Of a DNA stretch of 46,281 bases, positions 1-10,833 are shown piece after piece. The number at the start of each line of letters is the position of its first letter. The stretch's first letter is position 1. The notes beneath the pieces were generated by a model. That model made no database searches. It saw only the letters and a program-made list of their open reading frames with translations, and had not been told where the DNA came from. The stretch lies in contig JAIXKN010000055.1 in assembly GCA_026932425.1 (NCBI GenBank), positions 1 through 46,281 of the forward strand. The letters are read 5' to 3'. Both the position numbers and the translations under genes were made by a program. Source of the stretch: Burkholderiales bacterium. GTDB taxonomy: Bacteria > Pseudomonadota > Gammaproteobacteria > Burkholderiales > Burkholderiaceae_C.

Positions 1-30
1 CTTGGCGACCGACTGCCGATATCCGGCGGA

Positions 31-672
31 ATGCGAATCCAGCCCGCGATCTGGCAGACGCCGGAATTCGTGGCGCTCACGCCGGCCGCGAAGTTGACGT
101 GGCTGTTGCTGTCCACGGCACCAGAAACGAACCTCGCGGGGATCGTCCCGGCGCACCCGGCAGTGATCGCGAAGCTCTGCGGGATCAAGACGCGCGAGGC
201 CGCGACCGCGCTCGCGCAGCTCGACCAGCTCGGGTTGATCGACTACGACGCCGAGCGCTGCGTCGTCTGGATACGTGGTCATATGGCACGGCAGCTCGGC
301 GCGATGAAGCCCAATGCTGCGCAAGTGCGAGGCGCTGCTGCGGTGCTCGACCGCATGCCCGAGACGGACATGGTGGCCGCGTTCCGGAGGCTGTACGGCA
401 TACCCGCGAGAGGCGTCGTCACGGCTCACCGGCAAGAGAAACGGCGCGCGAAAGCTGCTCAAAAAAGAGGCAGTTCCGATAGGGTATCGGATAGGGTACC
501 GGGGGACCGTCCCGGGGGACCGTCACCGGGGACTGTACCGAGCGTGACCTCCTACCTACCGTCTACTAGTGCAAGCGTTCTGCTGCACGAGGACGACGCC
601 GACACGCCGACCGCTGACACGTCCGACGCCGCAACGCCGACGCACGCACGCCACGCCGGGGGTGCGTCATGA
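31..672 (+). CDS. Phage replication-type protein with N-terminal winged-helix-like region
   Basis: The 213-residue product has an N-terminal half (about 1-125) that looks like the helical DNA-binding domain of phage replication proteins: an opening of the type 'IQPAIWQTPEFVALTPAAK', then a GIVPAHPAVIAKLCG stretch and a helix before 'LGLIDYD'. The C-terminal 80 residues are low-complexity, basic and then Thr/Ser/Ala-rich. Its stop overlaps the primase start (ATGA), so the two are translationally coupled. The frame stays open to base 1, so an upstream start outside the window is possible; the ATG at 31 is chosen because the family-like sequence begins there. The function is inferred from position and fold pattern, not from a catalytic motif. 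Confidence 0.6.
   Translation: MRIQPAIWQTPEFVALTPAAKLTWLLLSTAPETNLAGIVPAHPAVIAKLCGIKTREAATALAQLDQLGLIDYDAERCVVWIRGHMARQLGAMKPNAAQVRGAAAVLDRMPETDMVAAFRRLYGIPARGVVTAHRQEKRRAKAAQKRGSSDRVSDRVPGDRPGGPSPGTVPSVTSYLPSTSASVLLHEDDADTPTADTSDAATPTHARHAGGAS
477..538 (+). repeat. Short tandem repeats inside the replication gene, candidate iterons
   Basis: Two copies of an 11-12-nt unit (c-gatagggta-t/c, 477-499) are followed by three 13-nt units at 500-512, 513-525 and 526-538: CGGGGGACCGTCC, CGGGGGACCGTCA and CCGGGGACTGTAC. They sit at the 3' end of the replication gene, just after an A-run (461-466). Lambdoid phages place origin iterons inside the initiator gene (lambda O), so this is a candidate origin; that role is inference. 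Confidence 0.4.
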
Positions 673-1703
673 CCGGCTGGCTCCAGCATCTGCTGCGCGA
701 CGCCGGCCGGGTTGAACTGCGCCATCACGACGGCCAGCGCTGGACGAGCGGCATCTTCGACGACGAGCACGCACTGCGCGCCACCGTCGAGCGGCTGGCG
801 GGCGTCGGCAACCTCTTCACGTCGCTGAACGCACCGAAGCCGCTGCCGGCCGGCAACGCCATGAACGGCCGTGCTCTGCGCGACATGGATATCGGCTGGA
901 TCACGCGCCTACCGTTCGACTTCGATCCCGTGCGGCCGACTGGCGTGCCCAGCACCGACGACGAGCTGCAGACCGCGATCGCTCGGCGCGACCGGCTCGT
1001 GCAAGCTCTTCGCGCGATCGGCTGGCCGACCCCGGCGACGGCCATCAGCGGCAACGGTGCGCACGCGATCTACCGCTGCCGGCTGCCGGCCAACGACGAG
1101 ACGGCCGACATGCTGCGCTCGATCTACACCGGCATGCAGATCGAGTTCACGACCAAGTCCGTGATCTTCGACGTGACGGTGCGCAACCCGGCGCGAATTT
1201 GGCGCTTGTACGGCGTTTTCAACCGCAAGGGCACCCCTACCCTTGACCGACCGCATCGGCGCGCTCTGGTGCGCATTCCGGGCCGCTGGGCGGGTGTTTC
1301 TGCGCAGCAAGTCGAGCGGCTGGCCGACGCCTACGCGAAAGCGCTCGATCGGCAGCTCCAGCAGCAGCACGTCGAGCGGCCGGCAGCACGGGTGCCGGCT
1401 GGCAGCAGCGGCGACTACAACACGTTGGACGTGGTGGCTTGGTTCGCGGCGCACCAGTCCTACCGGCGACCGCTGGCCGACGGCAAGCACGCGGCGCGCT
1501 GCCCCTGGACGCACGAGCACAGCACCGAGCCGACGGCCAACGACACCAGCACCGTCGTCTGGCAGTCCGACGGCAACGGCTGGCCGACCTTCCACTGCTC
1601 GCACGCGCACTGCCACGGCCGGCGCATCACCGACGTGATGCGGCACTGGGGCGACGCCGATCGCTTCTGCGGCCGCGCCTGGCGCAAGGGGGTGACGGCA
1701 TGA
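669..1703 (+). CDS. Phage/plasmid-type archaeo-eukaryotic primase with C-terminal zinc motif
   Basis: This 344-residue protein carries the marks of the archaeo-eukaryotic primase superfamily: an acidic FDFD pair (Asp84, Asp86), a SGNGAH nucleotide-binding motif (Ser127-His132), and a later 'FDVTVRNPARIWRLYG' segment with the third acidic and basic residues. A C-terminal Cys/His cluster (ARCPWTHEH ... FHCSHAHCHGR) is a probable zinc finger for template recognition. It likely primes replication of the element together with the adjacent helicase. The start overlaps the preceding stop (ATGA), and its own stop overlaps the helicase ATG, indicating a coupled operon. Whether it also has polymerase activity cannot be judged from sequence. 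Confidence 0.82.
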   Translation: MTGWLQHLLRDAGRVELRHHDGQRWTSGIFDDEHALRATVERLAGVGNLFTSLNAPKPLPAGNAMNGRALRDMDIGWITRLPFDFDPVRPTGVPSTDDELQTAIARRDRLVQALRAIGWPTPATAISGNGAHAIYRCRLPANDETADMLRSIYTGMQIEFTTKSVIFDVTVRNPARIWRLYGVFNRKGTPTLDRPHRRALVRIPGRWAGVSAQQVERLADAYAKALDRQLQQQHVERPAARVPAGSSGDYNTLDVVAWFAAHQSYRRPLADGKHAARCPWTHEHSTEPTANDTSTVVWQSDGNGWPTFHCSHAHCHGRRITDVMRHWGDADRFCGRAWRKGVTA

Positions 1704-3226
1704 AGCTGCGCGACTACCAAACCCGCCTTGTCGCTGCCATCCGCGAGCACTGGGACGCTGGCCGTCGTCGCGTGCTGGCCGTGCTGCCGACCGGCGGCGG
1801 CAAGACCGAGACCGCAATCGACATCATCCGCGACGAGGCCACGCCGACCACGCGCGTGCTGATCATCGCCGAGCGCAAGCAGCTGGCCGTGCAGTGGGTG
1901 GCACGGCTCAAGCGCCACGGCTTCGACTACGTCGGCCTGCTGCAAGCCGACAACACGATCCGGCTGGCCGCACCGATCATCGTCGCCACGGCACAAAGCC
2001 TGCGCTCGCGCGGCTGTCCCGAGGGCGTCGCGCTGATCGTCATCGACGAGAGCCACATCTGGCACCGGACGCACGACGATGTGCTCGATCGCCTGCCGGA
2101 CGCGCGCGTGCTCGGTCTGACGGCTACGCCGCTGCGCGAAGGTCTTGGTCTACGCTTCGACGCGCTGGCCGTCGGCTCGACGATTGCCGAGCTGCAAGCC
2201 GAGGGCTCGCTGGTCCGTGCGAGGTACTACGCACCAGCACAAGACGAGATCGAGCGCGCGCTGCAAGTGGTGGCCATCCAAGCCGGCGACTACCACGGCG
2301 CGCAGTTGTCCAAGACCATGCGGCAGAAGGCCATCATCGGCGACGTGGTGAGCACCTGGCAACGGCTCGGCGAGGACCGGCAGACGATCGCCTTCTGCGT
2401 GGACAAGCAGCACGCGCGCGACCTGGCCGACGAGTTCCAGTCTGCCGGTGTCGCGGCCGAGGTCATGCTCGACGACACGAGCGACGAGGACCGCGCCGAG
2501 CTGATCGCGGACTTCGAGGCCAAGCGCTTGCGCATCCTCGTGTCCGTCGGCGTGCTGTCCATCGGCTTCGACAGTCCGATCGCGAGCTGCGCGATCATGG
2601 CGCGGCCGACGCTGTCGCTGGGGCTGTACATCCAGCAAGGCGGCCGGGTGCTGCGACCGTACCCCGGCAAGACGGACGCGATCGTGCTCGACCACGCCGG
2701 CAATGTCTTGCGGCACGGCAAGCTGGAAGACTTCGAGCCACCCGCCGACTTGTCGAAGATCGACAAGGGCACCGACAAGAAGTCGCGGCGCGATCCGGCA
2801 AAGGCCTGGGTCTGCCGCTCGTGCCACGCACTCAACGATCTGGCCGATGACATCTGCACCGAGTGCGGGACCGCGTGCTATCGGCGGACGCTGGCCGTCG
2901 TCGTCGACGGTGAGCTGCGGCCGTTCGATGTCGAGCGACCGGGCGATCCGCTGCCGGGCGCGACGCTGGACGAGGTTCATCGGTTCTACCAGTCCTGTCG
3001 CTGGCACGGGCGCAGCCGCGGCATGCGCAGCCCCGACGGCTGGGCCTACTACGCGACCATCCGGCGCTTCGGCTTGCGCGACGGCGCTGTGAAGCTGCTG
3101 TTGCCGTACAGCCTTCGCGATCAGCAGCCGATCCCGCCAGACGAGGCTACGGCACGGTGGCTGCGTGCGGACCTCCAGCGGGCGCGCGTGGCTGCTCGGT
3201 ATCGGGCACAACGAGGTGCAGCGTGA
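1700..3226 (+). CDS. Superfamily 2 DESH-box helicase with zinc ribbon
   Basis: The 508-residue protein has the SF2 order: a Q-like 'LRDYQ' opening, Walker A PTGGGKT (residues 30-36), a DESH box (116-119), motif III-like 'LTATPLR', and a C-terminal RecA domain with 'GFDSP' and 'QQGGRVLRPYPGK' (motif VI with the arginine finger). Cys372, Cys375, Cys386 and Cys389 form a C-terminal zinc ribbon. Related phage proteins unwind the element's DNA alongside the primase. The ATG at 1700 is chosen because it overlaps the primase stop and directly precedes the conserved domain; the longer open frame upstream is only a shadow of the primase gene. Confidence 0.88.
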   Translation: MKLRDYQTRLVAAIREHWDAGRRRVLAVLPTGGGKTETAIDIIRDEATPTTRVLIIAERKQLAVQWVARLKRHGFDYVGLLQADNTIRLAAPIIVATAQSLRSRGCPEGVALIVIDESHIWHRTHDDVLDRLPDARVLGLTATPLREGLGLRFDALAVGSTIAELQAEGSLVRARYYAPAQDEIERALQVVAIQAGDYHGAQLSKTMRQKAIIGDVVSTWQRLGEDRQTIAFCVDKQHARDLADEFQSAGVAAEVMLDDTSDEDRAELIADFEAKRLRILVSVGVLSIGFDSPIASCAIMARPTLSLGLYIQQGGRVLRPYPGKTDAIVLDHAGNVLRHGKLEDFEPPADLSKIDKGTDKKSRRDPAKAWVCRSCHALNDLADDICTECGTACYRRTLAVVVDGELRPFDVERPGDPLPGATLDEVHRFYQSCRWHGRSRGMRSPDGWAYYATIRRFGLRDGAVKLLLPYSLRDQQPIPPDEATARWLRADLQRARVAARYRAQRGAA

Positions 3227-3468
3227 CCGCGCCTAGCTGGGGCTGGATGCTGCTGCTGTCCGTGCTCGGCGGCGGCAAGCTGCCAGAGCTGCCGGCCTAC
3301 CGCGAGGCGCGGCACGTCTCGCGCAAGACGGACGAAGATGCGCGGCCGCTCGTCGGCGAGGACGCGGCGCTGCTCATTGCGGACACGAGCGTCACGTCGT
3401 CGCTGGCCGCGACGCTGCTCGGCATGGCCACCGCGACGCTGCAGCAGCTGCGGGGGGCCCGGCGATGA
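3223..3468 (+). CDS. Small unknown protein coupled to the helicase
   Basis: An 81-residue ORF starts at GTG 3223 in a GTGA overlap with the helicase stop, the same coupling used elsewhere in this operon. The N-terminus is hydrophobic (WGWMLLLSVLGG), followed by a charged middle and an Ala/Thr-rich helix ending 'LQQLRGARR'. I do not recognise a family. A single short hydrophobic stretch could be a membrane anchor, but it is too short to be sure. Support is the overlap and conserved direction; there is no domain evidence. Confidence 0.5.
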   Translation: MTAPSWGWMLLLSVLGGGKLPELPAYREARHVSRKTDEDARPLVGEDAALLIADTSVTSSLAATLLGMATATLQQLRGARR

Positions 3469-3497
3469 GCCCCGGCGGTCACGGGTCCTTCCCGGGC

Positions 3498-3514
3498 ACC
3501 CCCCAAATGGGGGT
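3498..3514 (+). terminator. Hairpin between replication and head genes
   Basis: A run of six C's and a run of five G's flank an AAAT loop, closed by an A-T pair, followed by 'aattcgggcc'. There is no clear T-tract, so it may be a weak terminator or an mRNA-stabilising hairpin. It separates the replication operon from terS, which has its own -10 box downstream. Confidence 0.4.
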
Positions 3515-3549
3515 AATTCGGGCCCCGCGATGACGCTAGTGAGCAGCCC

Positions 3550-3555
3550 TAGGAT
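3550..3555 (+). promoter_or_regulatory. Candidate -10 box (TAGGAT) for the terS-capsid operon
   Basis: TAGGAT lies 6 nt before the ATG at 3562, so transcription would begin at or next to the start codon, giving a leaderless mRNA. No convincing -35 is visible. Confidence 0.4.
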
Positions 3556-3561
3556 TTCACA

Positions 3562-4029
3562 ATGCGGGAAGATGATGCGCCACCCATGAGCCAATCCGCG
3601 CTCGCGAAAGCGTTGGACCTGAGCGAGGCTGTAGTGTCCCGACTCAAGCGCCGCGGCATGCCGGTCGATTCGGTCGAGGCCGCGCGAGCCTGGCGCGCCG
3701 CGAACGTGCGGCCGCGCATGGCGCCCGTGGCCGAGGGCGCCGGGCTGAATGGTGCGGACTACACACGCGCCAAGGCTCAACGCGAGGCCGCCGAAGCCCA
3801 GCTCGCCGAGCTGCGCGCGGCGCGGGAACGCGCCGAGCTGGTGTCCGCGGCCGACGCCGCGCGCGCCTGGGCGGACTTCCGCGTCCGGGCCGAGCGCGAA
3901 CTGCACGGCCTGGTCGACCGAGTGGTGCCGCTGCTGGTCGAGGTCGGCCCCGACGCTGCCGGCCTTGACGAGGTGCTGCGGCGCGAGATCCTGGGCACGC
4001 TGGCGAAGCTTTCGGGCCGCGCCAAGTGA
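3562..4029 (+). CDS. Terminase small subunit-like DNA-packaging protein (Nu1-type)
   Basis: This 155-residue protein has an N-terminal helix-turn-helix of Nu1/TerS type: 'MSQSALAKALDLSEAVVSRLKRR' followed by a 'GMPVDSVEAARAW' wing. A central coiled-coil-like region is rich in Ala/Glu/Arg (about residues 70-110), and the C-terminal helical domain ends 'LGTLAKLSGRAK'. Small terminases bind the packaging site and recruit the large subunit; none is encoded nearby, so a helper enzyme may be used. The start at 3562 is preferred over 3586 because of the -10 box just upstream. Its stop overlaps the next gene (GTGA). The assignment rests on architecture and position before the capsid gene. Confidence 0.7.
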   Translation: MREDDAPPMSQSALAKALDLSEAVVSRLKRRGMPVDSVEAARAWRAANVRPRMAPVAEGAGLNGADYTRAKAQREAAEAQLAELRAARERAELVSAADAARAWADFRVRAERELHGLVDRVVPLLVEVGPDAAGLDEVLRREILGTLAKLSGRAK

Positions 4030-4511
4030 CCGCCTGGGACAACATGCTCGCCGCCTTCGGCGCCACGCCGGCCGAGTCCATCGCCACCGACGCGCGCCTA
4101 CGCGCCGAGCTGCAGCGCCTGGTGCGCGCCGTGGTCGAGGACCACACCTTCAGCCGTGCCGAGCTGCTCGACTTGCTCGGCCGCGCGCACCTGGCGCCGT
4201 TGTCTGACGCGGATCTCGAGGTCGCACCGGCGCTGCTCAACTGGCTGCACCGCACGCGGCCGGGCGAGTGGATGACTGCCGCCGGCATTGCCACGATGCT
4301 GCTGGCCGACGCCGACGCCGAGCATCTGCGGCACGCTCTGGCGCCCGAGCTGCGCGCGCAGCATCCAGCGCGCGAACTGGGTCGACTGCTGCGCCGCCTC
4401 GCGTGGCGCGACGTCGGCGGCCTCCTGCTGCGGCACCGGCCGCCGGCGCACCGCCGCGACTCGTCGCAGTACCGCGTCGAGGAAGTCCGAGACGGGACGA
4501 TTCCCGGCTGA
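4026..4511 (+). CDS. Unknown helical protein between terS and capsid
   Basis: The 161-residue protein begins with GTG overlapping the terS stop. It is predominantly helical and rich in Ala, Leu, Arg and Asp. A middle section, 'LEVAPALLNWLHRTRPGEWMTAAGIATMLL', could form a winged-helix-like fold, and the C-terminus is basic. I do not recognise a family. Its place between the small terminase and the capsid protein suggests a head-assembly or packaging role (for example scaffold or size control), but that is inference from position only. The 53 bp to the capsid start contain that gene's ribosome-binding site. Confidence 0.6.
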   Translation: MTAWDNMLAAFGATPAESIATDARLRAELQRLVRAVVEDHTFSRAELLDLLGRAHLAPLSDADLEVAPALLNWLHRTRPGEWMTAAGIATMLLADADAEHLRHALAPELRAQHPARELGRLLRRLAWRDVGGLLLRHRPPAHRRDSSQYRVEEVRDGTIPG

Positions 4512-4564
4512 TTGTCCAAGCGACGCGCGCGCGGCACCATCGTGCCAACGACACGAGGTCACGC

Positions 4565-5575
4565 ATGGACAGACACCACGGACTGCCGCTCGACATGTAC
4601 GACGCGGACACGCTGCGCAAACTCGGGCTGCTCGACGAGAGCGGCGCAGCCGATACGACGCTTGCGCAAGCACTGCGCGCGATGGTCGGCAACCCGGCCG
4701 CCACCGGGCCGCAGCGCCGGCGGATCGGACTCGCGAGCTTGACGCGGGATCTGACGGTAGGCACGGCCAATGCCGGCGGCTACCTCACCGCCACCAGCAT
4801 GGGCGCCTTCGAGACGCTGATGCGCCGCTGGAGCATCCTCGGGCAAGCCGGATGCAACGTCGTCGGCCCCTTCGACTCGGCCACCGTCATCCCCCGCGCG
4901 GGCACGAGGCCGGCCGCGTCATGGCTTGCCAACGAAGGCGTCAGCATTCCGCAGAACGAGGGCACCTTCGCGCAAGCTGCGGTTACGCCGCACTACGTCG
5001 CGATTTTCTCGAAGGTGAGCCGGCAACTGCTCATGCAAGGGGGAAAGGCCGTTGACGCCATCGTCAACGAGCTGGCCGCCGACGCGGTAGGCCGCGCCAT
5101 CGACGAGGCCATCGTCGCCGGTGCGGGTGCTGCTGGCGCGCCGACCGGCATCGTGAACACCAGCGGGATCAGCACGCAGTCCGGCACGAGCCTTGCGCAC
5201 GCCGGCCTGCTGAACATGCGCGAGGCCGCGCTGCTGCAGTCCGCGCAAGAGCAGAACCTGGTCTGGTTGGGCAATCCCGCCGTGCAGAAGACGCTCGCCG
5301 GCCGCGAGCGCCACGCTGGCGGGGGCCGGGCGCTTTGGGACGACAACGGCATCTTGGGCCGTCCGGCCTACGCGACGACGGCCGTCCCCGCCGCGACGCT
5401 GGTTTGCTGCGACCCGAGCCGAATCACCGTCGCGCACTTCAGCGGTGGCCTCGGCGTCGAGGTTGACCCGTACACCGACTTCCGTTCGGGCAAGGTTGCG
5501 TTCCGGCTCATCGTCGCCGTGGACTTCGCCTTTACGCCGGCCGCGAGCTTTGCAGTGGCCACGAACATCACCTGA
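4565..5575 (+). CDS. HK97-type major capsid protein
   Basis: The 336-residue protein matches the HK97-fold capsid pattern. It has a short N-terminal arm (about 60 residues), then the E-loop/P-domain entry 'LTVGTANAGGYLTATSMGAFETLMRRWSIL', an FSKVSRQLLMQGG helix, an 'AADAVGRAIDEAIVAGAGA..GAPTGI' spine helix, and a C-terminal A-domain with 'YTDFRSGKVAFR'. The arm is shorter than the roughly 100-residue delta domain of HK97 itself, and no protease gene is adjacent. ATG 4565 is chosen for its GAGGT site about 6 nt upstream; the longer open frame to 4268 only shadows the preceding gene. It forms the shell of the element's or a hybrid virion. Confidence 0.85.
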   Translation: MDRHHGLPLDMYDADTLRKLGLLDESGAADTTLAQALRAMVGNPAATGPQRRRIGLASLTRDLTVGTANAGGYLTATSMGAFETLMRRWSILGQAGCNVVGPFDSATVIPRAGTRPAASWLANEGVSIPQNEGTFAQAAVTPHYVAIFSKVSRQLLMQGGKAVDAIVNELAADAVGRAIDEAIVAGAGAAGAPTGIVNTSGISTQSGTSLAHAGLLNMREAALLQSAQEQNLVWLGNPAVQKTLAGRERHAGGGRALWDDNGILGRPAYATTAVPAATLVCCDPSRITVAHFSGGLGVEVDPYTDFRSGKVAFRLIVAVDFAFTPAASFAVATNIT

Positions 5576-5591
5576 CGCGCGAGGAAAACCC

Positions 5592-5849
5592 ATGTTTCCG
5601 ACCCAAAACTACGCCGGCGCGACGACGCAAGTCCGTTGCCTCGTCAAGCACTGCATCCACGGCCAGCGCATCGAGCCCGGGCAGACCTACGAGCTGGCCG
5701 CGCACGAGGCCGCATTGCTGGCGGCAGACGGCCGCGTCGAGCTTGTCGACCCGGACACGGCCGCTGTCTGCGCGCTGGCCGTGCGCCAGCAGTCCGGGCG
5801 CCTTGCGCGTCTTCAAGGCGGGCACGTAATTCCCGCCGCGTTCGCGTAG
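5592..5849 (+). CDS. Small head-region phage protein
   Basis: An 85-residue ORF begins 16 bp after the capsid stop, with a strong GAGGAAAA ribosome-binding site. The core 'VKHCIHGQRIEPGQTYELAAHEAALLAADGRVELVD' follows a pattern common to small phage head-module proteins: a beta strand, His-Gly, a Gly turn, a helix with EAALL, then Gly-x-Val-Glu. The exact role (decoration, head completion or other) is unknown. It is the last clear gene of the rightward operon before the palindrome array. Confidence 0.65.
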   Translation: MFPTQNYAGATTQVRCLVKHCIHGQRIEPGQTYELAAHEAALLAADGRVELVDPDTAAVCALAVRQQSGRLARLQGGHVIPAAFA

Positions 5850-6086
5850 GGGTCCGCGCACCGATAGAGATCGTCGGCGCGCGGTGTTGTGGGCCGCGCG
5901 CATGTCGAGCGGGATCGCCGCCCCAGCCCGCCGTCGGATTTCGGCACCGACGACCCAAGGGCGGCAACTTCAAGATCGCGCGGGGTTTCGTCGGGTTGGC
6001 CCGCGCGCGCAGCGGGTTCCGCCGCCTCTCCCGCCGCCGACTCGGCGTCAAGGGCGGCATCTTCAGCCGCCTTCGGGCGAGCTCTC
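5850..6086. other. Non-coding stretch leading into the palindrome array
   Basis: This GC-rich sequence has several overlapping open frames on both strands, but none has a ribosome-binding site or protein-like composition. It contains small GC hairpins, such as GGCGGC/GCCGCC near 6053-6071. No gene is called. Confidence 0.5.
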
Positions 6087-6541
6087 AAGCGGTAAGTCAA
6101 CTTACCGCTTTGCAAACCAAAACCGCAGCTCAAGCTGCGGATTTGGCGGACAACACCCAGCACCTCGCCGCCATCCACGCGCTGCCCGAGAGCTGCTGAA
6201 AACTGTCCGGCCGGCCGGACGGTTTTGGCGGACAGCACCCAGCCCTCGCCGCTGCGGCGAGCTGCTGGCGCTGGCCTGTGGATCAAGCGGCAAATTTGCC
6301 GTTTGATCGCGGGCGAATCAGCGTTCGCCAATTGGCGAATCCAAATCGCAGCCCGAAGCCGCTGGAGGTTCGCCAATTGGCGAAGCTGCAACGCAGTCCG
6401 AAGCCGCCGCGCTGCACTGCGTCAAGTCGCCAATTGGCGACTTGGTGCCCCACGGCTCAACGTCGGCAAGCGCGAGACGGCGGCGGCGAGGCTGGCGAAC
6501 ATGCGGCAGGGCGCGCGGGTAGATGCCTCAATTGATGCATC
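6087..6541. repeat. Array of about nine distinct long palindromes
   Basis: Within 455 bp there are: 6087-6110 (AAGCGGTAAGT + CA-centred mirror, 11-bp arms); 6118-6147 (CCGCAGCT/AGCTGCGG core, one mismatch pair outside); 6199-6226 (GTCCGGCC/GGCCGGAC core, AAAAC/GTTTT ends); 6245-6261 (CTCGCCGC/GCGGCGAG); 6281-6308 (GATCAA-CGGCAAA mirrored, one mismatch pair); 6324-6339 and 6369-6384 (TTCGCCAATTGGCGAA, identical); 6423-6444 (CAAGTCGCCAA mirrored, perfect); and 6522-6541 (TCAATTGA core). Flanks are also duplicated: TTTGGCGGACA(A/G)CACCCAGC at 6142 and 6224, and a CGCAG-CCGAAGCCGC spacer after two of the CCAATTGG copies. No array-spanning ORF is convincing. Confidence 0.85.
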
Positions 6542-6634
6542 ACCAGTGCGACAAGCCGATTCCGCCGCGCTGCAGGCGCAACCTCAAGCCGGGTTCCCAG
6601 CAGTTTTCCGGCACTGGCGGGGGCTCGGCGCGCG

Positions 6635-6640
6635 TACGAT
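6635..6640 (+). promoter_or_regulatory. Candidate -10 box (TACGAT) for the 6647 ORF
   Basis: TACGAT is 6 nt upstream of the ATG at 6647, and no ribosome-binding site is present. A leaderless transcript is implied. The -35 region is not recognisable. Confidence 0.4.
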
Positions 6641-6646
6641 GCGCGC

Positions 6647-6892
6647 ATGAAGCCGATAGACGATCCCGAGCTGACCGCAGCATGCCGCCGCTACGGCGCG
6701 CGCCGAGTGCACGACGCGGCGATGGCCGGCTTGTACGGCCGCATGGAGCCGCTGCGGGCGCTGGGCTTGCCGGCGCGCGGAGCCCCGGACGCGCACGACG
6801 CGCTGCGCGTGGCGTACGCGTTACTGGACGATGAGGACCGCGCGGCGGTTGACGCCGAGGCGGTGATCGGGCTGGCGCGGCTGGCTCGGTGA
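6647..6892 (+). CDS. Small unknown protein at the element's right end
   Basis: The 81-residue protein opens 'MKPIDDPELTAACRRYGARRVHDAAMAGLYGRM' and ends with an acidic-to-basic helical tail 'LLDDEDRAAVDAEAVIGLARLAR'. Composition and periodicity look like a real compact helical protein, and similar short proteins occur near phage replication and cargo genes, but I cannot name a family. It has its own -10 box and no Shine-Dalgarno sequence. It is the last coding unit before the attachment site, a position that often carries cargo in satellites. Confidence 0.5.
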   Translation: MKPIDDPELTAACRRYGARRVHDAAMAGLYGRMEPLRALGLPARGAPDAHDALRVAYALLDDEDRAAVDAEAVIGLARLAR

Positions 6893-7186
6893 GCTGCCGG
6901 CGCTCGGGCCTGCCGGCTTTCCATGGCGCCCTGCGTGCTGCAGGGACGCGCCAGAACGCCCGAGAACGCGCGCACGCTGGCGGATGAAGCCTTGCCCCTT
7001 GCCGAGCGGCTGCGAGCGCTTGGCGGGCCTTCTGCTGCGCCCTGGCCGGCGAGGCCGACACCGGCGCGAGGCGCCAGTAGCTCATGCAATGAGCCACCGA
7101 TTCCACCTGTTCGGGGATTCGTACTCCGTCGATGCGGCTGCGGCGTGAAGTGGTGCAGAATGGTGCCCCGTAGGGTCTGGCTAGGC
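6893..7186. other. Non-coding right arm of the element, up to the attachment site
   Basis: No gene is supported. A small inverted repeat (GCTCAT-gca-ATGAGC) lies at 7081-7095 in the arm next to the tRNA fragment. It could be an integrase or Xis arm site, but only by position. Confidence 0.4.
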
Positions 7187-7230
7187 TTGCAAATCCGTCT
7201 AGGCCGGTTCGACTCCGGCTCGCGCCTCCA
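7187..7230 (+). other. Duplicated 3' end of tRNA-Cys, attachment site (attR)
   Basis: The 44 nt read as anticodon loop TTGCAAA, partial anticodon stem, variable loop, T-arm (CCGG-TTCGACT-CCGG) and acceptor CGCGCC-T-CCA of a Cys(GCA) tRNA. The sequence 5' of the anticodon does not form the D-arm, the 5' anticodon strand or a matching GGCGCGA acceptor strand, so this is not a working gene. A tRNA 3' fragment at the boundary between phage and host genes is the standard mark of integration into a tRNA; the intact copy should be at the left end. Confidence 0.8.
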
Positions 7231-7265
7231 AGATTTCCCCTGGCCTGACACGGCCGCAAGCGAAG

Positions 7266-7285
7266 GGGCTCCCGACCGGGAGCCC
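7266..7285 (+). terminator. GC-rich hairpin behind the tRNA-Cys end
   Basis: GGGCTCCC-gacc-GGGAGCCC is followed by 'gttgtg'. It lies 35 bp after the tRNA 3' end and is probably the original tRNA-Cys terminator, now separated from the rest of the gene by the element. Confidence 0.6.
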
Positions 7286-7323
7286 GTTGTGCGTTCGGCG
7301 CCGGCGATGGGCTTCGGGCTGGC

Positions 7324-7329
7324 GATAAT
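7324..7329 (+). promoter_or_regulatory. -10 box (GATAAT) of tRNA-Leu
   Basis: GATAAT ends 8 nt before the tRNA-Leu 5' end, the expected spacing for a tRNA promoter. Confidence 0.55.
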
Positions 7330-7337
7330 GCCCGCCG

Positions 7338-7426
7338 GCCCGGATGGCGAAACCGGTAGACGCAGCGGACTTAAAATCCGCGGCCCTTCGCGGGGCATGC
7401 GGGTTCGAATCCCGCTCCGGGCACCA
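7338..7426 (+). tRNA. tRNA-Leu (anticodon UAA)
   Basis: An 89-nt class II tRNA with acceptor pairing GCCCGGA/TCCGGGC and anticodon stem GCGGA-CTTAAAA-TCCGC (anticodon TAA). The long variable arm is GGCCCTTCGCGGGGC-like, the T-arm is GCGGG-TTCGAAT-CCCGC, and CCA is encoded at 7424-7426. Confidence 0.95.
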
Positions 7427-7491
7427 GCGTGCGGCGGACCTGCGCGGGGAGCGCTGAATCCCGATGGCGCGAGGGCTTTGATCGAGAGATA

Positions 7492-7507
7492 CTGTATGGA
7501 CATACAG
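7492..7507. promoter_or_regulatory. LexA (SOS) box upstream of dnaE2
   Basis: CTGTATGGACATACAG is a perfect dyad matching the CTG-N10-CAG proteobacterial LexA operator, extended by A/T on each side. It ends 14 bp before the dnaE2 ATG and overlaps where the -10 would fall for a TTGATC -35 at 7478-7483, so LexA would block polymerase directly. Confidence 0.88.
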
Positions 7508-7521
7508 TCGTTGAATCCGTC

Positions 7522-10500
7522 ATGCCCGCATCGCGCAGCAGCCCCGAGCTGCCCGGCTACGCCGAGCTCGTCTGTCGCAGCAACTTCAGCTTCCTGACCG
7601 GGGCCTCGCATCCGCAGGAGCTGGTGCTGCGGGCCAAGGCGCTGCGCTATGCGGCACTGGCGATCACCGACGAGTGCTCACTGGCGGGCGTCGTGCGCGC
7701 GCATGCGCAGGCCAGGGATTGCGGGCTGCCTCTGATCGTCGGTGCGACGATGCAGCTGCAGGCGCGGGGGCAAGCGGCCGGCGCCGAGGCTGCACAGTCG
7801 GGCCCGCGCCTCGTGCTGTTGGCGCAGACCCGGCGCGGCTACGGCAACCTCTCGCAGTGGATCACGGTCGCACGCCGGCGGGCGACCAAGGGACAGTACG
7901 AGGCGCTGATGGACGACCTCGAAGGCAAGGTGCCCGATGCGCCGACGCTGGCCGGGCTCCCGGATTGCCTGGCGCTGCTGATGTGCCCGGCGGTGCTGTC
8001 ACCGGCCGTCGTGGACCCGTTCGAGGCCTTGTTCGCGCAGGCGCTGTGGCTCTCGACCTGGTTCGGGCCCGAGCGCTGCGCGCTGGCGCTGCCGCTGCTG
8101 CTGCGCACGCACGACGCGCTGCTGATGGACGTGGTGCAGCGCGTTGCGGCGCTCACCGGCCTGCGCATCGTCGCGGTCGGCGACGTGCTCATGCACCGGC
8201 GCTCGCGCAAGCCGCTGCAGGACGTGCTGACCGCGACGCGGCTTGGCCGCCCGCTGGCCGAGTGCGGCCACGCGCTCGAACCCAACGCCGAGGCGCATCT
8301 GCGCTCGCGCGCGCGGCTGGCGCGGCTTTATCGGCCCGAGTGGCTGCAGGCAACGCTGGCGGTCGCCGGGCAGTGCCGCTTCTCGCTCGATGAGCTGCGC
8401 TACGAGTACCCGGACGAGATCGTCCCCGCGGGTCACACGCCCACGAGCTGGCTGCGCCAGCTCACCGAGGAAGGCCTGCGGCGGCGCTATCGCCGCACGG
8501 ATGCGCGGGAGGATGGCGAGGCGGCCGACCCGGCACCGCCTGCGGTGCGCGCGATCGTCGAGCACGAGCTGGCGCTGATCGCGCAGTTGCGCTACGAGCC
8601 CTACTTCCTCACCGTCGCCGAGCTCGTGCACTGGGCGCGCGCGCAGGGCATCCTGTGCCAGGGTCGCGGCAGCGCGGCCAACTCGGCGGTGTGCTACGCC
8701 CTGGGCGTGACCGAGGTCGACCCGGCGCGCATGTCGGTGCTTTTCGAGCGCTTCATCAGCGCCGAGCGCAACGAGCCGCCGGACATCGACATCGACTTCG
8801 AGCACCAGCGCCGCGAGGAGGTGATCCAGCACGTCTATCGCAAGTACGGCCGCCACCGTGCCGCGCTCACCGCCGTCCTCGTCAGCTACCGCACGCGCTC
8901 GGCGCTGCGCGACGTCGGGCGCGCGCTCGGGATCGACCTCGACCGCATCGACGCCGTCGCCAGGAGCCAGCACCGCTTCATCGACGGCGGCCTGGCGCCC
9001 GAGCGCCTGCGCGAGCACGGCTTCGACCCCGAGGCACCGCTGTCGCGGCTGTGGCTCGAGCTGAGCGCGACGCTCACGGGCTTTCCGCGCCACCTCTCGC
9101 AGCACCCGGGCGGCTTCGTCATCGCGCGCGACCAGATCGCGCGCCTGGTGCCGGTGGAGAACGCGGCCATGCCCGGGCGCAGCGTCATCCAGTGGGACAA
9201 GGACGACCTCGACGCGCTCGGGCTCATCAAGGTCGACCTGCTGGCGCTGGGCATGCTGAGCGCGATCCGCCGCGCGCTGGCGCTGGTGGCCACCAAGCTC
9301 GGGCGCGCCGCGTTCACGATGCAGGACGTTCCCGCCGAGGACGCCGCCACCTACGAGATGCTCTGCCGCGGCGACAGCGTGGGCGTGTTCCAGGTCGAGA
9401 GCCGGGCGCAGATGAGCATGCTGCCGCGGCTGCAGCCGCGCTGCTTCTACGACCTCGTGATCCAGGTCGCGATCGTGCGCCCGGGGCCCATCCAGGGCGG
9501 CATGGTCCATCCCTACCTGCGCCGCCGTCAGGGCCTGGAGCCCGAGGATTACCCGAGCGAGGAGGTGCGCCAGGCGCTTGCACGCACGCTGGGCGTGCCG
9601 ATCTTCCAGGAGCAGGTGATGCAGCTGGCGATGCTGGCGGCCGACTTCACGCCCGGTGAAGCTGACCAGCTCCGCCGCGCGATGGCTGCGTGGAAGCGCA
9701 AGGGCGGGCTCGGCCCCTTCCACGAGCGGCTCGTCGGCCGCATGCGCGCCAAGGGCTACAGCGCCGAGTTCGCCGAGCGCATCTTCAGGCAGATCGAGGG
9801 CTTCGGCGAATACGGCTTCCCGGAGAGCCACGCGGCGAGCTTTGCGCTGCTCGTCTACGTCAGCGCCTGGCTCAAGTGCCACCATCCGGACGCCTTCCTC
9901 GCCGCGCTGCTCAACAGCCAGCCGCTGGGTTTCTACGCGCCCGCGCAGCTCGTGCGCGACGCGCGTGCGCACGGCGTGCAGGTGCGGCCGGTCGACGTGA
10001 CGCGCAGCGCCTCTGAGAGCACGCTGGAGGCGGCCGGCGCCGGCGGCGACGCGGACGCCGCGCAGGGGGTGGGGAAGGGCGCCGGGCGATGCGCCGTGCG
10101 GCTGGGGCTGGATCGCATCCACGGCCTGGCCGAGGACGCCGCCCGGCGCGTGCTGGACGCGCGCGCGCGGGCGCCGTTTGCCGGCGCCGAGGATCTGGCG
10201 CGCCGTGCGCGACTGGACGCGCGCGCGCTGGGTCTGCTCGCTGCGGCCGGGGCGCTGGCGCCGCTGACCGGGCATCGCCGCCACGCCGCCTGGGCCGTGG
10301 CCGGCATCGACACTCGCGCCACGCCGCTGCTGCACGCCACGCGCACGCACGAGGCGCTGCCTGCGCTGCCCGCCCCCGGCGTCGCGGACGAGCTGGCGGC
10401 CGACTACCGCAGCACGGGCCTGAGCCTTTCCTCACACCCGCTGGCGCTGCTGCGCACGCATCTCGCGGGCTTCGGGGTGCAGCCGGCGGCGGTGCTGCAC

Positions 10501-10833
10501 GGCTACCCGAACGGGCGGCTTGCCCGCGCCAGCGGCCTGATCACGCACCGCCAGCGGCCGGCCACGGCAGCCGGCGTGGTCTTCGTCACGCTCGAGGACG
10601 AGACCGGCGTCGTCAACGTCATCTGCTGGCCGCAGCTCGTGCGCCGGCAGCATCGCGAGCTGCTTGCCAGCACGCTGCTCACCGTTTACGGCGTCTGGCA
10701 GCGCGAGGGCGAGGTCTGTCATCTGGTGGCGCGCCGGCTTGTCGACCACACGCCGCTGCTGCCGCTGGGATCAGGCTTCGCTACAGCTGGCGGTCGCGCG
10801 CAAGCGGCGGATTGCGCGCGAAGTAGCGCCTGA
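7522..10833 (+). CDS. dnaE2: Error-prone DNA polymerase DnaE2
   Basis: This 1103-residue C-family polymerase has an N-terminal PHP domain ('YAELVCRSNFSFLTGASHPQEL', then 'ITDECSLAGVVRA'). The palm has catalytic acids in PPDIDIDFE (Asp423 and Asp425), and DnaE-type finger motifs include 'SAANSAVCYALGVT' and 'YGFPESHAASFALLVYVSAWLK'. A C-terminal OB-fold ends the conserved part. Length and content fit DnaE2, the translesion polymerase that works with ImuB in SOS mutagenesis. The LexA box 14 bp upstream supports this. No imuA or imuB lies beside it; tRNA-Leu is upstream instead. ATG 7522 is chosen because family similarity starts there and the SOS box lies upstream. The last 53 bp overlap amiC on the other strand. 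Confidence 0.95.
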   Translation: MPASRSSPELPGYAELVCRSNFSFLTGASHPQELVLRAKALRYAALAITDECSLAGVVRAHAQARDCGLPLIVGATMQLQARGQAAGAEAAQSGPRLVLLAQTRRGYGNLSQWITVARRRATKGQYEALMDDLEGKVPDAPTLAGLPDCLALLMCPAVLSPAVVDPFEALFAQALWLSTWFGPERCALALPLLLRTHDALLMDVVQRVAALTGLRIVAVGDVLMHRRSRKPLQDVLTATRLGRPLAECGHALEPNAEAHLRSRARLARLYRPEWLQATLAVAGQCRFSLDELRYEYPDEIVPAGHTPTSWLRQLTEEGLRRRYRRTDAREDGEAADPAPPAVRAIVEHELALIAQLRYEPYFLTVAELVHWARAQGILCQGRGSAANSAVCYALGVTEVDPARMSVLFERFISAERNEPPDIDIDFEHQRREEVIQHVYRKYGRHRAALTAVLVSYRTRSALRDVGRALGIDLDRIDAVARSQHRFIDGGLAPERLREHGFDPEAPLSRLWLELSATLTGFPRHLSQHPGGFVIARDQIARLVPVENAAMPGRSVIQWDKDDLDALGLIKVDLLALGMLSAIRRALALVATKLGRAAFTMQDVPAEDAATYEMLCRGDSVGVFQVESRAQMSMLPRLQPRCFYDLVIQVAIVRPGPIQGGMVHPYLRRRQGLEPEDYPSEEVRQALARTLGVPIFQEQVMQLAMLAADFTPGEADQLRRAMAAWKRKGGLGPFHERLVGRMRAKGYSAEFAERIFRQIEGFGEYGFPESHAASFALLVYVSAWLKCHHPDAFLAALLNSQPLGFYAPAQLVRDARAHGVQVRPVDVTRSASESTLEAAGAGGDADAAQGVGKGAGRCAVRLGLDRIHGLAEDAARRVLDARARAPFAGAEDLARRARLDARALGLLAAAGALAPLTGHRRHAAWAVAGIDTRATPLLHATRTHEALPALPAPGVADELAADYRSTGLSLSSHPLALLRTHLAGFGVQPAAVLHGYPNGRLARASGLITHRQRPATAAGVVFVTLEDETGVVNVICWPQLVRRQHRELLASTLLTVYGVWQREGEVCHLVARRLVDHTPLLPLGSGFATAGGRAQAADCARSSA

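Follow-up and report, generated by a model that had tools for sequence, protein, structure and literature searches.

A dense array of dissimilar palindromes in a PICI-like element of a Burkholderiales bacterium: two types recur in phage ParB-like genes

The window (the whole stretch of 46,281 nucleotides analysed here) begins inside a mobile element in which nine palindromes, most of them different in sequence, are packed into 455 bp between the capsid gene and the attachment site. The question raised by this locus is why so many two-fold-symmetric sequences should be gathered at one place, and whether anything like them is found elsewhere.

The palindrome array and the element that carries it

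Palindromes were counted if they had an arm score of at least 7 and a centre of 0-2 nt, one mismatch being permitted at a cost. By this rule, positions 6087-6541 contain nine palindromes, of 24, 30, 28, 17, 28, 16, 16, 22 and 20 bp, and the remaining 45.8 kb of the window contain 46 more. Dinucleotide shuffles of positions 6070-6560 (n=300) gave a mean of 0.31 palindromes and a maximum of 3, versus the 9 observed, and 40 control stretches of the same genome (515,596 bases, 628 palindromes) held no more than 4 per 455 bp (20-bp steps). The first-pass annotation had reported about nine palindromes of 16-30 bp in 455 bp, two of them identical; all were recovered, at a density far above that of the shuffles and of the own-genome stretches. 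The features of the array are as follows:

6087..6110, palindrome 1: 11-bp arms, 2-nt centre
6117..6146, palindrome 2: 14-bp arms with one mismatch, 2-nt centre
6138..6161 (copy 1) and 6220-6243 (copy 2), + strand, flank repeat: 24 nt, 92%
6199..6226, palindrome 3: 14-bp arms with one mismatch, without a centre
6245..6261, palindrome 4: 8-bp arms, 1-nt centre
6281..6308, palindrome 5 (A type): 14-bp arms with one G.T departure
6323..6407, + strand, two direct repeats of 40 nt (6323-6362 and 6368-6407): 85%, containing palindromes 6 and 7
6324..6339, palindrome 6 (S type): identical to palindrome 7, a 16-mer also found in phage contigs
6369..6384, palindrome 7 (S type): identical to palindrome 6
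6423..6444, palindrome 8: 11-bp arms, the CGCCAATTGGCG core of palindromes 6 and 7, outer arms CAAGT/ACTTG
6522..6541, palindrome 9: 10-bp arms with one mismatch

Departures from symmetry number one each in 6117-6146, 6199-6226, 6281-6308 and 6522-6541. Kinship inside the array is demonstrable for the three CCAATTGG palindromes (6-8) only, palindrome 8 having its inner 14 bp in common with 6 and 7; the others resemble one another as random palindromes of that composition do (a best pair as good in 0.60 of trials). The partial duplication of the flanks described earlier was confirmed by the 24-nt and 40-nt repeats, and the accompanying view of conserved flanks around diverged but symmetric cores stands for the flanks; divergence from common copies inside the array does not, the CCAATTGG trio alone being related. 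Descent by compensatory change was considered for palindromes 5 and 8, which differ by three double changes and one single change, with none broken, but this reading was dropped because random palindromes reach the same score in 0.60 of trials. The whole array was also considered as the operator of one protein; the centre-anchored arms were not alike (P 0.41; P 0.014 with a free offset), and one protein would not bind an array of so many different palindromes.

The element, of about 9.4 kb and inserted in a tRNA-Cys gene, is by its gene content a PICI-like phage satellite: it has an integrase, replication genes, a small terminase subunit (TerS) and a capsid homologue, and no large terminase among the ORFs scanned. 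Searches of nine ORFs of the window and three of the left end gave no match to large terminase, portal, tail or lysis genes. The genome is a draft of 110 contigs, and the other end of the element lies on another contig (C48), which shares 55 bp with the start of the window and carries an intact tRNA-Cys, an adjoining tyrosine integrase and small ORFs. The part in the window is arranged as follows:

31..672, + strand: replication initiation/DnaD-like helicase-loader protein (phrog_3171, phrog_1701)
669..1703, + strand: putative primase-like protein, without a family match of its own
1694..3226, + strand: DEAD/RadD-like helicase (family matches)
3562..4029, + strand: small terminase subunit (phrog_57)
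4553..5575, + strand: HK97-type major capsid protein, the frame being open further upstream
5592..5849, + strand: small gene 3' of the capsid gene, no family match
5850..6646, no strand assigned: array-bearing stretch with weak 3-base GC periodicity and 2-7 stops per frame in six frames
6647..6892, + strand: 81-aa helical protein adjoining the array, no confident relative
7187..7230, + strand: attR, the 3' part of tRNA-Cys (intact tRNA-Cys at the opposite end of the element, on C48)

The array had been placed between the head genes and the attachment site, and the tRNA-Cys 3' fragment ending near 7230 bears this out. The initiator has no relative in the other 80 genomes of the genus. The 669..1703 protein is partially matched, at 26-41% identity, in four more genomes of the genus, one of them that of a sister satellite whose counterpart matches primase families. 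A single-sequence model of the 81-aa orphan has five helices and a pLDDT of 91, with no clear structural relative. On contig C48, where the integrase gene begins beside attL, there are two 21-nt repeats 60 bp apart (2143-2223); one of them adjoins TTTTGGCGGAC, an 11-mer that is also found in the array at 6223. A DNA polymerase gene, which we take to be of the DnaE2/ImuC type, lies at 7429-10833, directly beyond the tRNA-Leu that comes after attR.

The difference in GC between codon positions was 0.21-0.35 inside genes, 0.12-0.13 across gene ends and 0.02-0.12 in windows of 5850-6750. Despite stops in all six frames, two frames of 5850-6646 are open for 183 and 190 codons, so the argument for a non-coding stretch rests on composition and not on stops. 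The symmetry had been attributed to the nucleic acid itself, which agrees with the absence of coding periodicity and with the finding that two of the types also occur elsewhere, some copies within reading frames and others in intergenic DNA.

Relatives of the element and occurrences of its palindromes in phages

DNA similarity to the array was detected in none of 50,697 phage records, and plasmids gave two 48-bp matches at E 0.04. Matches were found in 12 of 61 genomes (own included) and, apart from the array itself, were 22-43 bp long. The S-type 16-mer occurs in its own genome in the array only and was not found in any of the other 80 genus genomes, so that no resident prophage partner was seen. 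The flank motif, with up to two mismatches, was present in 4 of 81 genomes, and was exact in its own genome only. A pair pattern was matched in 2 of 399 family genomes, the genome itself and one with a tandem repeat, and a search of the family genomes for the capsid protein at E 1e-30 returned, among the matches listed, its own genome alone (1/399).

Relatives of the capsid protein were found in 17 of the 81 genus genomes, own included. There were at most two palindromes per 500 bp at 18 capsid loci (L014-L031) scanned with short flanks under a stricter rule, and at most two at the seven loci taken up for a longer inspection. Scans with a three-row capsid alignment recovered one viral locus and two loci in genomes, the latter apparently on the G072 and G010 contigs; none has an array. 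The nearest clear satellite relative is the sister satellite (G072), with a capsid protein 41% identical, a tyrosine integrase, a primase-like protein, a partial TerS match and other cargo; it has no array between its capsid gene and tRNA. The capsid relative on a cut contig of 8.6 kb (G010) also lacks one. Homologous elements without the array, named at the outset as evidence against selection for pairing, therefore exist as far as these relatives go, which places the array outside any conserved core.

The search of phage, plasmid and Burkholderiales genomes proposed with the original description thus yielded no homologous array; what recurs in phage contigs is two of the palindrome types. 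The S-type 16-mer (palindromes 6 and 7) was found in IMG/VR at 37 sites in 33 stretches. The A pattern, modelled on palindromes 1 and 5 and matched by palindrome 5, was found in 34 stretches and in 2 of 328 other family genomes; several AT-rich matches may, we presume, be Pasteurellaceae uptake signals. Palindrome 5 has a 22-bp core in common with phage contigs except at its G.T departure base, and the cores in common with other phages carry different symmetric outer arms.

These two separate array queries led to one place in ParB-like phage genes, 3' of a conserved ...SQRA...G(G/Q)(D/R)RKS stretch and before a helix-turn-helix (HTH)-like motif. A signature test, written after A-type examples and short S-type contexts had been seen, was passed by 6 of 37 S-type sites and 7 of 34 A-pattern loci, versus 1 of 1340 random positions of the same loci; the other 31 S-type sites and 27 A-pattern loci lack the signature. 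Two further loci (L169 and L193) have the palindrome at the same place, but missed the signature and are outside these counts. In these genes the palindromes are read as SPIGE (S type), QAANLPL (A type) or QAATLPL (C type), and the type matches the motif behind it at 13 of 13 sites: the S type is followed by NVGKR[ST]VERA (6/6), the A type (AAATTT) by [GS][EA]RSVR[SA]A (3/3) and the C type (AACGTT) by SERTQRMAD (4/4). This agreement possibly reflects descent, as three subfamilies are involved, and because exact patterns served to find the 13 sites, some of their perfection comes from the selection itself. In the array, the A- and S-type readings fall in different frames (6281 in codon phase 2; 6325, 6370 and 6427 in phase 1; assigned by hand).

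In a profile search of seven of these proteins, all matched phrog_21315 and six matched the ParB-like partition family phrog_4715. The HTH_ParB profile had one weak match among the seven (E 0.028, below the cut-off) and none in the others. We infer that the motif behind the palindrome may be an HTH containing the recognition helix; as the HTH was not confirmed by the profile, our confidence in the readings below that depend on it is slightly lowered, to the benefit of the insertion and terminator alternatives. Twelve homologues found by protein (five phage and seven plasmid, picked from 9 phage and 54 plasmid records) were also inspected. A palindrome of different sequence (scores 9 and 10, read GTECP) is present in Acidovorax phage AP1 and in phage ctsTn925, and a Sinorhizobium homologue has a 12-bp palindrome at the corresponding place. 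Counted by hand and without regard to gaps, these three fall at residues 136-138 of the query protein (L170), which has its own palindrome at residue 137. In the remaining 9 of the 12, no palindrome in the aligned portion scores above 7. The ParB-like protein of phage ctsTn925 (L228, 589-1557) contains repeated GTECP, encoded by the GGGCACTGAGTGCCC palindrome and degenerate copies of it. Among five further copies of GGCAA-NN-TTGCC in the loci examined, three continue their symmetry for another 4-6 bp, and each of these is in a locus fetched by the A-type pattern. Three of the ParB-like proteins carry a DNA methyltransferase domain, which makes the palindrome as a methylation target a further possibility; their genes, each with an internal coding palindrome, are:

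L192 8741-10213, - strand: ParB-like protein with MT-A70 domain
L046 3004-4740: ParB-like protein with MT-A70 domain
L058 7923-9251: ParB-like protein with N6_N4_Mtase domain

Sites were also found outside ParB-like genes. In IMGVR_UViG_3300037246_001819 (loci L037, L044, L054, L055 and L066), the S-type site TTCGCCAATTGGCGAA occurs eight times in the 42,849 bases examined, and at least four of the eight are, by eye, just upstream of a start codon; this looks like the operator of a phage regulon, judging from the positions of the sites. The ParB-like motifs sought were found neither in the examined part of this contig nor in the window, the left end of the element or the examined parts of three contigs with at least two S-type sites. 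The only other array of at least five palindromes in the loci scanned is that of IMGVR_UViG_3300048578_000217 (L181), where seven different palindromes lie in 229 bp (495-723), two of them containing the A core and one the S core. All are in frame, within the part of a small terminase gene (Terminase_4) that encodes an N-terminal extension; this gene lies between an HNH gene and the large terminase.

The original observation that no named family matches the array holds within the searches made, with the qualification that two of its palindrome types are a recurring feature of phages. In the portions available of the literature on palindrome arrays, coding palindromes, ParB-like own-gene operators and satellite decoys (e.g. 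PMC2996958), nothing was recognised as matching, and this partial coverage contained no description of the recurring phage feature.

Candidate explanations of the array

The symmetry, AT-richness, sequence diversity and lack of coding periodicity of the array, together with its place in the cargo region of the satellite, would be explained by a set of sites for several phage DNA-binding proteins. Our preferred reading, offered tentatively, is that the palindromes are two-fold-symmetric double-stranded DNA sites for phage proteins of several specificities, forming a decoy or capture array. When loops of up to 20 nt were allowed at a score of at least 8, all eight inverted repeats in 6070-6560 had loops of 0-2 nt, whereas elsewhere in the window (6001-6700 excluded) 14 of 82 did; at score 7, nine of the ten in the array had short loops and the tenth had a loop of 18 nt. 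The palindromes have a GC content of 0.54 and the spacers one of 0.72. An RNA hairpin needs a loop, so symmetry running through the centre is unexpected for RNA, and the centres of 0-2 nt, with palindromes AT-richer than spacers, favour double-stranded DNA over RNA as the seat of the signal. The pairing first suggested, in RNA hairpins or in cruciform or dimer-binding sites, can accordingly be narrowed: dimer-binding DNA sites are favoured, and RNA hairpins less so, in view of the short centres, AT-rich palindromes and differing stems.

Under the preferred reading, the array would consist of dyad sites like those lying within the genes of phage ParB-like proteins. At least two site types, A (palindrome 5) and S (palindromes 6-8), would be combined in the satellite with five further palindromes. 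Dimeric DNA-binding proteins of incoming or helper phages would dock on the array, and docking would either titrate these proteins (decoy) or mark the satellite DNA for replication or packaging (capture). Two steps, that ParB-like proteins bind the palindromes in their own genes and that binding to the array helps the satellite, are suppositions. A bolder version is doubtful: phage ParB-like proteins, some of them fused to methyltransferases, would keep their own palindromic site in the coding sequence before the DNA-binding motif, site and motif changing together, and the satellite would have collected several such sites as a non-coding, multi-specific decoy or sensor for helper or rival phages. 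Among the functions proposed at first (packaging or recognition locus, structured RNA, decoy array), a decoy or capture array thus appears plausible on sequence grounds, packaging or replication keeps a smaller share, and a structured RNA is less favoured.

The alternatives were ranked as functionless palindromic insertions, a replication or packaging centre, an RNA and terminators. The first, which we consider unlikely, is that short palindromic insertions, like Rickettsia palindromic elements, enter tolerant genic and intergenic DNA without any protein partner, have piled up here in a decayed stretch, and are kept symmetric by correction of one hairpin arm from the other. Such insertions would account for palindromes that lie in frame in apparent linkers, for the seven different ones in the N-terminal extension of a single small terminase (L181), for homologues with and without a palindrome, and for an array of several types that are AT-richer than their surroundings. 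A CAA triplet, one in each of palindromes 1, 2, 5, 6, 7 and 8, also falls in a single codon phase, the frame being interrupted once, by a stop located between palindromes 2 and 3, and may be a relic of coding; however, this triplet was picked post hoc, and palindromes 2, 5 and 8 contain CAA in other phases too. Random insertion would not be expected to give a constant position in a protein family or a match between palindrome type and motif, and the insertions come without a demonstrated target duplication or empty-site pair.

Rather unlikely, too, is a cis-acting centre of the satellite itself, either a replication origin with dyad iterons or a packaging site for its own small terminase. The array stretch is the longest of the element without a recognised gene (ORFs were read, with no gene predictor), and the most AT-rich 60-bp window of 1-7230 is at 6085, although by duplex stability it comes second to that at 449. 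Sites of the cos or pac kind are known near the HNH-TerS position, and the L181 array sits between HNH and the TerS domain. The origin of PLE satellites, in the extracts available, is likewise a non-coding region with semi-palindromic iterons (PMC7145576, PMC8263062). Iterons, however, repeat one sequence, whereas the array palindromes differ; nor is there an array in the sister satellite, which admittedly has different replication genes.

A structured RNA, with tandem hairpins in the 3' part of the capsid transcript, is improbable. Folding z-scores were -9.9 (+ strand) and -7.6 (- strand), and two of the four symmetry departures are, by hand, G.U on the + strand; but any palindrome folds well on both strands, the symmetry and composition discussed above point to DNA, no loop is common to all nine palindromes, and the Rfam gathering score in 5500-7600 was reached by tRNA-Leu only, with weak sub-threshold matches over the array. 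Least probable of all are stacked bidirectional terminators insulating the satellite from host genes beyond attR: palindromes 2 and 3 have A/T-rich feet, but most palindromes lack a T run by eye, a stem followed by a T run is found in one of nine (palindrome 2, - strand), and 5400-7300 contains 4 terminator-like sites (shuffles: 1.7, sd 1.2), of which that one alone is on a palindrome.

If the palindromes are the sites of proteins encoded around them, the targets of many phage regulators and methyltransferases could be read from the gene, such arrays would reveal which phages a satellite deals with, and satellite-helper specificity would become testable from sequence. If they are instead tolerated insertions, a class of very short coding palindromes has spread through phages. 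Either way, the two palindrome types are not peculiar to the genome in which they were noticed.

Comparison with known systems

The closest parallels are with satellite origins. Like the array, the PLE origin belongs to a phage satellite and has closely set dyad sites in a non-coding region; as far as the partial accounts go, its iterons differ from the array in being copies of one sequence bound by one RepA_N dimer (PMC7145576, PMC8263062). No RepA_N match was found among the satellite ORFs scanned, and only palindromes 6-8 have a common core beyond chance. Gram-negative PICIs share with the element an integrase, replication genes, TerS and a capsid homologue, and PICIs with capsid homologues are known (PMC6092414, in part). 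They are unlike it in their origin, described in the sections available as an AT-rich region with a set of iterons on either side, immediately 3' of rep, with no palindrome array mentioned there (PMC6092414); the array, a set of differing palindromes, lies 2.9 kb past the helicase gene. Repeat families in positions 1-5860 of the window have two copies each in the best five of seven.

REP/BIME elements are also palindromes, of 20-40 bp, but, in the descriptions at hand, REPs are high-copy families with end tags (GTAG/CGTC), whereas the 16-mer is confined in its own genome to the array and a search with the whole array at E 0.001 revealed no high-copy repeat and no palindrome in many copies.

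Rickettsia palindromic elements are inverted repeats inside reading frames, and, with the coding palindromes of nematomorph mitochondria and PARCELs, they resemble the phage palindromes in this respect. The nematomorph ones reach 284 bp and PARCELs are tandem 25-residue units, according to the excerpts available; the palindromes described here differ in being 14-30 bp long, phage-borne, and at one place matched to the motif behind them.

ParB-parS systems and phage operators consist of palindromic sites for dimeric proteins. The likeness lies in the palindromic sites themselves and in the phage contig that repeats the S-type site before start codons; the array is set apart by its several site types, and the sites in phages by the fact that some of them lie inside the gene of their presumed binder.
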